From Flavobacterium hibernum (GTDB lineage Bacteria > Bacteroidota > Bacteroidia > Flavobacteriales > Flavobacteriaceae): a DNA stretch of 64,000 bases. A program made the translations under genes and the position numbers. The first letter of the stretch is position 1, and each line of letters begins with the position of its first letter. Where the stretch lies: the NCBI RefSeq assembly GCF_000832125.1, contig NZ_JPRK01000023.1, forward strand, positions 1-64,000, in the 5' to 3' direction. Of the stretch, positions 34,173 to 36,378 are shown piece after piece. A model generated the notes under the pieces. It saw nothing but the letters and a program-made list of their open reading frames with translations, searched no databases and was not told the origin of the DNA.

Positions 34173-35196
34173 AACCTATGATTTCTGTTTTAATATGTTT
34201 AGAAATAAAATATTCGATTGCAGCTTCGTAATTTTCGCGTTTACCCGATAATTCGATTAACATTACGCCAAAATTAACATCTCCGGCCTGATCCATTTGC
34301 GCGCTGACAATTTTAAAGTCAGTATCAAATAATCGAGAAACTTCGGAGATTACAGGTTCATTAACTGATTTTCCTGTCATTTCGAGCCTTAGCAACGGAC
34401 ACAAACCTTCACCATCTACTTTTTGCAATCTTTCCTGATATACTCTTGGAATATCCAGATGCAATGACGATGCGATAAATTCTTTTGTTAATTCATGTTT
34501 TGGATCTGCAAAAATTTCTCCAACACTTCCCTGTTCTATTAACTTTCCATGACTAATTACGGCAACTTCATCGCAAATCGATTTAACGACTTCCATTTGG
34601 TGCGTAATCAACAAAACAGTAATGTTCAGGCGACGATTAATATCCTTCAATAAATTTAGAATCGATCGCGTAGTTGCAGGATCTAATGCACTTGTAGCTT
34701 CATCACACAACAATACTTTTGGATTATTCGCCAAAGTTCTGGCAATCGCAACTCTTTGTTTTTGACCTCCGGAAAGACTCGCCGGATAATCATTTGCTTT
34801 TTCTTTTAAACCTACTAAATCTAATAGTTCCAGAACTCGTGTCTTGATTTCGGATTTTGAAGTTCCAACAAGTTCTAAAGGAAAGGCTACGTTATCAAAA
34901 ACAGTACGTGATGAAAGTAAATTGAAATGCTGAAAAATCATCCCAATTTGTCTTCTTTCAATAGCAAGTTGCGCATTCGACAATTGCATTAACGATTTTC
35001 CGTCTACTATAATTTCTCCCGAAGTTGGTCTTTCGAGCAAGTTGACACATCGAATTAATGTGCTTTTCCCTGCTCCCGAAGTGCCAATTACACCAAAGAT
35101 TTTCCCTTGCGGAACTTTAAGTGAAACATCTGATAGAGCCGAAACAATTCGGTTTTTCTGATGAAAATTTTTGGTGACATTTTTTAATTCAATCAT
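34165..35196 (-). CDS. metN: Methionine ABC transporter ATP-binding protein
   Basis: 343 residues. The ATPase domain has Walker [13 protein letters not shown], signature [16 protein letters not shown], Walker [14 protein letters not shown] and the switch His in LITHQME. The C-terminal NIL domain (about 265-343) is the methionine-binding regulatory domain that allows feedback inhibition of transport. First gene of the operon; it is preceded by a terminator hairpin and a Met-containing leader ORF, which suggests attenuation control. Confidence 0.94.
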
Positions 35197-35272
35197 TTCT
35201 TTAATTCAAGTTAAGTCAGGAAAATTCGCCGACATAATTTTTATAGCTTCTGAAAATGTAAAATTTAAAATC

Positions 35273-35304
35273 AAAAAGCCTTTCAATTGATCATGAAAGG
35301 CTTT
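35273..35304 (-). terminator. Attenuator terminator upstream of metN
   Basis: On the minus strand AAAGCCTTTCA (35304-35294) pairs perfectly with TGAAAGGCTTT (35285-35275) and runs into TTTTT. It lies about 77 bases before the metN ATG and just after a 31-codon leader ORF. Because it stands between promoter and first gene, it can only make sense as a conditional terminator. Confidence 0.75.
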
Positions 35305-35325
35305 CGAAATAAATAATTTTACTTT

Positions 35326-35421
35326 CTATATATAAGCCAGTTCATACCATTGCATAATAGTATTACAACACATTATCATGTTGTTGCTAAAATGAATTGT
35401 ATACTGGTTATTGTTTTTCAT
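35326..35421 (-). CDS. Candidate Met/Cys leader peptide of metNIQ (31 codons)
   Basis: The minus-strand ORF starts at the ATG 35421-35419 and ends at TAG 35328-35326. Its middle reads NNMIMCCNTIM, with Met at 15, 17 and 23 and Cys at 18 and 19, dense for such rare residues. It starts within 10 bases of a -7 promoter box and ends 22 bases before a terminator stem. GGCTT in codons 28-30 (35338-35334) can pair with AAGCC of the terminator's first arm (35303-35299), so a ribosome stalled at the Met/Cys codons would leave it free to block the terminator, while one reaching the stop would cover it. This is the classical attenuation logic; no experiment is implied. Confidence 0.6.
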   Translation of the reverse strand: MKNNNQYTIHFSNNMIMCCNTIMQWYELAYI

Positions 35422-35429
35422 TGCTGCGG

Positions 35430-35437
35430 CAAATTTA
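35430..35437 (-). promoter_or_regulatory. Promoter -7 box for the met leader and operon
   Basis: On the minus strand TAAATTTG (35437-35430) matches TAnnTTTG and lies 8 bases before the leader ATG, so the transcript start falls almost at the leader codon. No good -33 TTG is visible. The rest of the gap to 35588 shows no gene. Confidence 0.55.
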
Positions 35438-35588
35438 AAGAGATATTTTGAATTTTAAAACAAAAAACATTAAATCTTTTATTATCCTATCAATATAATA
35501 GACTAATACATCTAAATTATTGACAAATATTTAGAGAATCCAAAAATACAACAGGCTGAATATTGTTTTCGATTTTTAGATTTAAAAG

Positions 35589-36155
35589 TTAGTTTTCGTA
35601 CATTTCTGGCGTAACAACATACTCTGTTAAAAATGCTCCATTTGAATCTGTATAATTGTATTTAATAGTAACTTCATTATCTCTGAACGATTTTAATTGC
35701 GGATTGTTTCTCACGTCTTCTAAAATACGCGGAAAAATATATTTTCGAACTGTATCTATTTTAACATCCGCTTTAGTGATTCCAACTAAAACATAATTAT
35801 ACTGAAGCGTTTTGTTTGGTAAAGCCACAGCATTTTTTAAAGTTGTATTCGCGTCAACATTCATCGGGCAATTTTTATTCACTTTATTTGCTGCTTGAAC
35901 TAATACCTTATCAACAGATGTGTCACTAGACGGTTTAAATGGAAGCTGCATTACAAAAAACATCACAATAAAACCAGCTACAAATCCTAAAAAGGTTTTC
36001 AAATTAAATTTTCTTTCAGGTTTATCAGCTTTCTTTTTCTCTATTGAAGAAGCTATAGCTTCCTTTTCTAAAACAGGCAATTTAAACCCACAGACAGAAC
36101 AATATTTTGAATTTATATCATTTTCTGCTTCACAATTTGAACATATTGTTTTCAT
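35589..36155 (-). CDS. Zinc-ribbon membrane protein
   Basis: 188 residues. The N-terminus is a zinc ribbon of the double-CxxC type (TICSNCEAENDINSKYCSVCG), then a charged linker, one transmembrane helix (about 53-70, FLGFVAGFIVMFFVMQL) and a C-terminal domain of about 115 residues. The ribbon should be cytoplasmic and the C-terminal part periplasmic. Function unknown. Monocistronic; faces away from the cupin/MDR genes by a repeat-containing spacer. Confidence 0.75.
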   Translation of the reverse strand: MKTICSNCEAENDINSKYCSVCGFKLPVLEKEAIASSIEKKKADKPERKFNLKTFLGFVAGFIVMFFVMQLPFKPSSDTSVDKVLVQAANKVNKNCPMNVDANTTLKNAVALPNKTLQYNYVLVGITKADVKIDTVRKYIFPRILEDVRNNPQLKSFRDNEVTIKYNYTDSNGAFLTEYVVTPEMYEN

Positions 36156-36289: not shown

Positions 36290-36378
36290 TGTCACCTTGA
36301 GCGAAGTCGAAGGGCACAATCAAAATCGATATTCTTTGTCGAATTACGTGATGCTCTTCGACTTCGCTCAGAGTGACA
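36290..36378. repeat. CTTCGACTTCGCTCA-family inverted repeat
   Basis: Arms 36290-36312 and 36356-36378 share GAGCGAAGTCGAAG and its complement with a few mismatches at the outer TGTCACC end. The internal TTTGTCGAATTACG segment resembles the interior of the other members. Same family as 21237-21339 and 41410-41650. Confidence 0.7.

Follow-up and report, generated by a model that had tools for sequence, protein, structure and literature searches.

A probable Met/Cys transcription attenuator upstream of the methionine transporter operon metNIQ in Flavobacterium hibernum

The leader of the methionine transporter operon metNIQ in Flavobacterium hibernum is very probably a ribosome-mediated transcription attenuator, as suggested by comparison of related leaders and by RNA folding models. 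Here, we describe this leader in a window of 64,000 nucleotides (contig NZ_JPRK01000023.1, positions 1 to 64,000), in which a promoter box, a short open reading frame (ORF), an antiterminator, and a terminator lie in series on the minus strand, followed by metN-metI-metQ (Table 1). Sequence comparison revealed a conserved ORF with control codons, alternative pairings of three downstream segments (B:C and C:D), and a conserved position of the stop codon. Attenuation is known as a type of control and has hardly been described in this bacterial group or for methionine import; the full set of attenuator segments, found over 60 leaders, makes the device testable in a Flavobacterium.

Locus layout

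The first-pass annotation of this DNA had placed a box, a 31-codon ORF, GGCTT, AAGCC, and a terminator in series before metN, and all of them were found at those positions, on the minus strand. The three transporter genes each exceeded their own NCBIfam cut-off. The terminator was the sole terminator-like site within 35150-35600 (shuffle mean, 0.0), and the fold of the metN-leader RNA beat all 200 shuffles (z = −3.83). The −7 box of F. psychrophilum is reported to span −12 to −5 (PMC9723704); by analogy, transcription of metNIQ would start at about 35425, approximately 4 nt before the ATG, leaving a 5′ untranslated region of 4 nt.

Table 1. Features of the metNIQ leader and operon in the window
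Feature	Position	Strand	Basis
−7 promoter box TAAATTTG	35437-35430	minus	sequence
leader ORF MKNNNQYTIHFSNNMIMCCNTIMQWYELAYI, 31 codons plus stop TAG	35421-35326	minus	ATG at 35421
control codons ATG ATA ATG TGT TGT (MIMCC)	35379-35365	minus	conservation in 60 metN leaders
inner hairpin CAACA/TGTTG enclosing the control codons	35383-35366 (loop 35378-35371)	minus	stem kept in metN leaders
segment A, CCAG, protector arm	35407-35404	minus	predicted pairing with CTGG of B
segment B, CTGGCTT, partner of A or C	35340-35334	minus	GGCTT = codons 28-30
segment C, AAGCCTTTCA, terminator 5′ arm	35303-35294	minus	AAGCC at 35303-35299
segment D, TGAAAGGCTT plus U tract, terminator 3′ arm	35285-35273	minus	sequence, alignment, terminator scan
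terminator C:D	35305-35274	minus	terminator scan
metN	35196-34165	minus	TIGR02314, 546.8 bits (cut-off 499.7)
metI	34172-33519	minus	NF008049, 376.1 bits (cut-off 212)
metQ	33475-32663	minus	NF008285, 424.5 bits (cut-off 374)

Met and Cys codons of the leader ORF

The Met/Cys content of the 31-codon ORF was within chance when judged from the window alone: 676 of 5000 dinucleotide shuffles reached its Met+Cys count of 5, and an in-frame CC arose in 342 of 5000. The codon content of this single sequence is therefore not evidence, and we turned to relatives. MetN was detected (E ≤ 1e-110) in 26 of 150 Flavobacterium genomes, which were picked by the MetN protein alone; reading of the upstream DNA revealed the leader in 23 of these 26, a count that is independent of the ORF-containing covariance models used below. 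In the three genomes lacking it, MetN was only 65-75% identical, and the MetN of the window was 92-96% identical to that of named Flavobacterium records. Adding four of five named records to the 23 genomes brought the set to 27 loci, in which 25 leaders were distinct (L039, with only 30 bases upstream of metN, was left out, and L035 and L036 were dropped as duplicate leaders).

These 25 leaders, with ORFs of 22-32 codons, contained 152 Met and Cys residues, whereas 300 shuffles averaged 85.5 (sd 6.8) and reached 102 at most. The 152 were found among 696 non-start residues in frame, whereas the other two frames gave 54 of 671 and 47 of 671. For a wider set, covariance model R1 found matches in 84 of the 398 genomes of the genus (E ≤ 0.001), with 62 strong matches (metN) and 66 weaker ones; 59 of the weaker matches and a second element of the F. 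hibernum genome were taken into the set, and seven weaker matches were left out. The R2-scored sources of 64 (including two named-record duplicates) and 60 were thereby reduced to 60 and 59 distinct elements. The first class lies before metN throughout and the 59 of the second lie before other genes, giving 119 distinct elements, across which Met and Cys made up 23% of non-start residues. The gap between box and ATG was 8 nt in all 25 metN leaders and in 112 of the 119 elements.

The short, near-leaderless ORF was kept in 118 of 119 elements (60/60 of the metN type), a figure partly built in because the models of the wider set include ORF sequence, and in all 27 of the Flavobacterium metN loci that carry the element; the reverse pattern, in which the structure is kept and the ORF lost, was absent. 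The motif TGYTGY, located without reference to the ORF, was in phase 0 in 106 elements, in phase 2 in four, and absent from nine, so that 106 of 110 elements with the motif have it in frame. The distance from ATG to Cys took five values between 42 and 54 nt (118 elements), and segment B occurred in all three phases. The 60 metN leaders carried Met at position −1 in 55 cases, the first Cys (position 0) in 58, and the second Cys (position +1) in 53. Losses in the core of this class struck Met and Cys equally, and the data favor neither as the key residue; core variants among the elements included NICC, NNCC, MMYC, MMCR, MMCW, and TMCCM.

Outside the core, a comparison of synonymous and non-synonymous changes in the real frame and two shifted frames revealed no visible selection at the protein level: synonymous changes were fewer in the real frame (440 synonymous/1997 non-synonymous) than in the shifted ones (798/1704 and 783/1817). 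The C-terminus of the leader varies in length and frame. Met/Cys codons were kept and their flanks were variable across relatives, as the first-pass annotation had predicted, and what is conserved seems, from these sequences, to be the arrival of a ribosome at the core rather than the peptide.

RNA pairings and folding models

We examined the pairings in an alignment of 35 elements that was fitted to R1 and is thus biased to the terminator of R1; the B:C pairing lies outside that model. Each of the nine C:D terminator pairs can form in 24 to 35 of the 35 elements. GGC of segment B (GGU in three) can pair with GCC of segment C in 35/35 at each of the three positions, and the proposed antiterminator pairing is accordingly conserved. 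The protector pairing A:B (CCAG:CTGG) is present in the predicted fold of the window leader, and, of its two C-G columns, one pairs in all 35 elements and the other in 34; its two-sided covariation was not above control (355 of 500 shuffles reached it; for the covariation score, 9 of 500). Around the core, a perfect 5-bp stem was found in 54 of 60 metN leaders, compared with a mean of 47.5 and a maximum of 51 in 500 permutations of the Cys1 wobble base, a result that may be inflated by relatedness within the metN class; in the non-metN class, the same test gave 10/58, no better than permuted. In all 117 elements in which B was located, the position of the stop codon ranged from 10 nt ahead of segment B to 25 nt beyond it.

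The switch between RNA states was seen only in folding models, in which the temperature was 28 °C and the ribosome masked the RNA up to 15 nt past the stalled codon or 12 nt past the stop (60 metN leaders and 57 other elements; L181 and L182 were left out). In the models of metN leaders, the probability of B:C exceeded 0.5 in 14 of 60 without a ribosome, in 58 when a ribosome occupied the first Cys codon, in 57 with a ribosome two codons earlier, and in none with a ribosome at the stop; the corresponding counts for the 57 other elements were 29, 55, 52, and 0. The zero at the stop is a matter of geometry, because the stop is near B in 117/117 and the mask covers B, as modeled in 60/60 metN leaders. 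A:B had a modeled probability above 0.5 in 45 of 60 metN leaders and 22 of 57 other elements. When segment D was present and the ribosome was absent, the terminator won in 60/60 metN leaders and 55/57 other elements in these equilibrium models; therefore, the antiterminated state would be kinetic.

From this arrangement, we infer translation, stalling, termination, and a Met/Cys signal as follows. Starting about 4 nt before the ATG, RNA polymerase would presumably allow a ribosome to load immediately. When charged Met- and Cys-tRNA are ample, the ribosome would reach the stop on or beside B, B would be covered or re-paired with A, and the C:D terminator would form, keeping metNIQ off. When either charged tRNA is scarce, the ribosome would stall on MIMCC and open the core hairpin, leaving B free for C; with B:C formed, the terminator could not close and metNIQ would be transcribed. 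The stalled ribosome would presumably also break A:B, but the distance of approximately 25 nt by which segment A precedes the stall codons speaks against this scheme.

Other target genes in Flavobacterium

Among the 59 non-metN elements, the downstream gene was a Glu/Leu/Phe/Val-type dehydrogenase in 47 by motif and in three more by eye, an EamA-family transporter in five, a CpeT-family gene in two, and an amino-acid permease in one; L182 had no readable leader at the place given by the model, and its target gene was ambiguous. The dehydrogenase and the EamA transporter were unexpected as further targets, and if the proposed control is true, both would be linked to sulfur amino acids. Past the terminator, 51 of 52 dehydrogenase and EamA cases had a second ORF containing four or more Met/Cys residues, a count made with no shuffle control.

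At the dehydrogenase loci (L116, L167, L169-L171, and L222-L258), an ORF of the type MRSNRNTNIMMQCCLMKIPCC was observed between the terminator and the gene in 46 of 47, and its KIPCC end appears to be kept at the residue level. The EamA loci (L163, L164, L166, L168, and L172) carried two Met/Cys-rich leaders in series, with a second terminator recognized by eye in 5/5. At loose cut-offs, R1 and R2 gave 18 and 14 matches, respectively, in the F. hibernum genome; as candidates for further copies, eight loci in addition to the metN and dehydrogenase leaders were read, seven of which proved to be ordinary terminators without a Met/Cys leader. L117 likewise showed no such leader at the modeled position.

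Leaders in Chryseobacterium and before ilvE

A Met/Cys leader with a terminator was found in 11/11 Chryseobacterium loci: in three it directly precedes metN, in seven it precedes an open EamA-type gene adjoining metN, and in one (L094) it precedes an apparently broken EamA gene. The EamA-type gene of L086 scored below the cut-off of the YedA model (172 of 270 bits), as did that of the Flavobacterium locus L163 (185 of 270 bits). In Chryseobacterium, the segments have other sequences than in Flavobacterium, an in-frame start first occurs 15-27 nt from the box, and the antiterminators were weak (−0.5 to −2.0 kcal/mol). The pairing of EamA and metN in Chryseobacterium makes the EamA targets of Flavobacterium less odd, but not the dehydrogenase.

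Family-wide, R2 was matched in seven of 397 genomes. Three of these belong to the same genus and three to a different one; in the seventh (L187), no leader could be read at the hit. The matches in the different genus precede ilvE (the NCBIfam name in the case of L185), have cores such as MKSQNLNIISIISIVIMSR, and are followed by a second Ile-rich ORF and a terminator; their E-values of 8e-5 to 5e-4 apply to one genome and, over 397 genomes, are no proof of common descent. At L196 (same genus; 1100-1500), we observed tandem Ile-rich leaders, MKTNMNIIISIIIRSSE and MKTNMNIIIISIIIRSSG, each followed by a separate terminator, ahead of an ilvE-like gene whose product is an IlvE relative (53% identical).

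The core codons follow the operon, with Ile before ilvE, and this match points to tRNA charging as the signal; if this is true, Ile-rich leaders of like design would be a natural codon-exchange control. It is conceivable, although on balance rather doubtful, that flavobacteria share one portable design with swapped control codons (Met/Cys for metNIQ, EamA, and the dehydrogenase; Ile for ilvE) and that the genus reads sulfur amino acids twice, through SAM riboswitches for synthesis and through the leader for uptake and nitrogen metabolism.

Alternative explanations

The same RNA switch might be driven by the nascent peptide, a Met/Cys-rich chain that would arrest its ribosome on a ligand such as a metal, an oxidant, or free cysteine. 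Met/Cys-rich chains could bind metals, and neither the dehydrogenase nor the EamA transporter is an obvious Met/Cys starvation gene. However, the order and spacing of the core vary across elements, which is not a known trait of arrest peptides; moreover, flanks and spacings are different again in Chryseobacterium, and the core codons track the pathway, being Ile-rich in the like leaders before ilvE. We consider such a sensor improbable.

An intact small ORF with a terminator could belong to a small protein gene with unregulated readthrough into metNIQ, and metN might have another promoter. This is very improbable given the absence of protein-level conservation outside the core, the C-terminus that varies in length and frame, and the B:C pairing kept in 35/35.

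At Rfam gathering scores, no family, T-box and SAM riboswitches included, was matched in the window or in eight further loci, and a search of the leader region with the threshold relaxed to E = 10 returned sub-threshold matches only. Two SAM-I riboswitches (RF00162; L197 and L198) were above the gathering score in the F. hibernum genome, on another contig (C5), one before metX (followed by an aspartokinase-like gene) and one before metH, both proteins being named from partial matches; SAM-II (RF00521) was matched neither in this genome nor in 14 control genomes, so that this negative is no evidence of absence. SAM riboswitches thus exist in the F. hibernum genome but not before metN. A non-coding riboswitch (e.g., for SAM or methionine) with an incidental ORF would suit the strong fold and the hairpin conserved in the metN class, but these Rfam results, the location of the SAM-I elements, and an ORF retained in nearly every element with length changes by whole codons leave it hardly credible. 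If the attenuator reading is true, methionine control would be split between the SAM riboswitch (metX and metH) and tRNA charging (metNIQ).

Comparison with known systems

Enteric attenuators of the trp and his type have control codons, four segments in mutually exclusive pairings, and a stop by the second segment. The metN leader shares the control codons, the mutually exclusive B:C and C:D pairings, the stop position, and possibly the protector pairing A:B, whereas it is near-leaderless, would govern uptake rather than synthesis, and recurs as the same element before dehydrogenase and EamA genes. Mycobacterial polycysteine leaderless short ORFs are reportedly cysteine-responsive attenuators, going by the title of a 2020 paper by Canestrari; they resemble the present case in being leaderless ORFs with Cys codons and would differ in using Cys only, compared with Met, Cys, and an intrinsic terminator here.

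The first-pass annotation had called peptide attenuation of a methionine transporter notable. The reading as peptide attenuation is supported, but its novelty is tempered by Streptomyces lividans, for which a leaderless leader peptide, metL (MSTTSDRTPATEATTTPGARCMCRRMCAF), has already been predicted before metNIQ (PMC8079986). That paper highlights methionines and threonines and finds no typical Rho-independent terminator (PMC8079986); by our own reading of the printed peptide, Cys also clusters in it. The operon and the leaderless short ORF are thus alike, whereas the Flavobacterium leader has all attenuator segments, kept over 60 leaders.

Within the genus, leader peptides before amino-acid biosynthesis operons have been inferred among 64 structured 5′ regions of F. 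psychrophilum, in a study whose main text does not contain the word methionine (PMC9723704). In Lactobacillus sakei, a T-box precedes a methionine transporter and likewise provides control by uncharged tRNA through premature termination (PMC2965389). A T-box, however, reads the tRNA directly without translation, and the metN leader had no Rfam T-box match; SAM-I riboswitches also control methionine genes but sense SAM, again without translation. The same survey describes leader peptides, as of 2010, as known only from Proteobacteria, Actinobacteria, and a Firmicutes case of its own (PMC2965389), and an account of Actinobacteria gives cysteine leader peptides and no conserved RNA structure before methionine operons (PMC1262725). 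Our search of the open-access literature found no report of this metN leader in Bacteroidetes, and metL of S. lividans was the only methionine leader peptide found. The metN leader is a new, well-conserved case of a known control type, not a new mechanism.

Other observations

Upstream of the promoter box, a motif like CTATTAnnTTGATAGGnnAATAAAAGTTTT (window 35475-35504) was found at the same place in other Flavobacterium metN loci, and a counterpart like GTCTACTTTTTTAGTGGACTAATAAAA was found upstream of the box in Chryseobacterium loci L084-L102. In sequence, both resemble a palindromic operator and perhaps represent a second layer of sulfur control. In addition, an intergenic inverted repeat with the arms TGTCACCTTGAGCGAAGTCGAAGGGC and GCTCTTCGACTTCGCTCAGAGTGACA occupies 36290-36378 of the window; it could represent a dispersed repeat or serve as a terminator in both directions.
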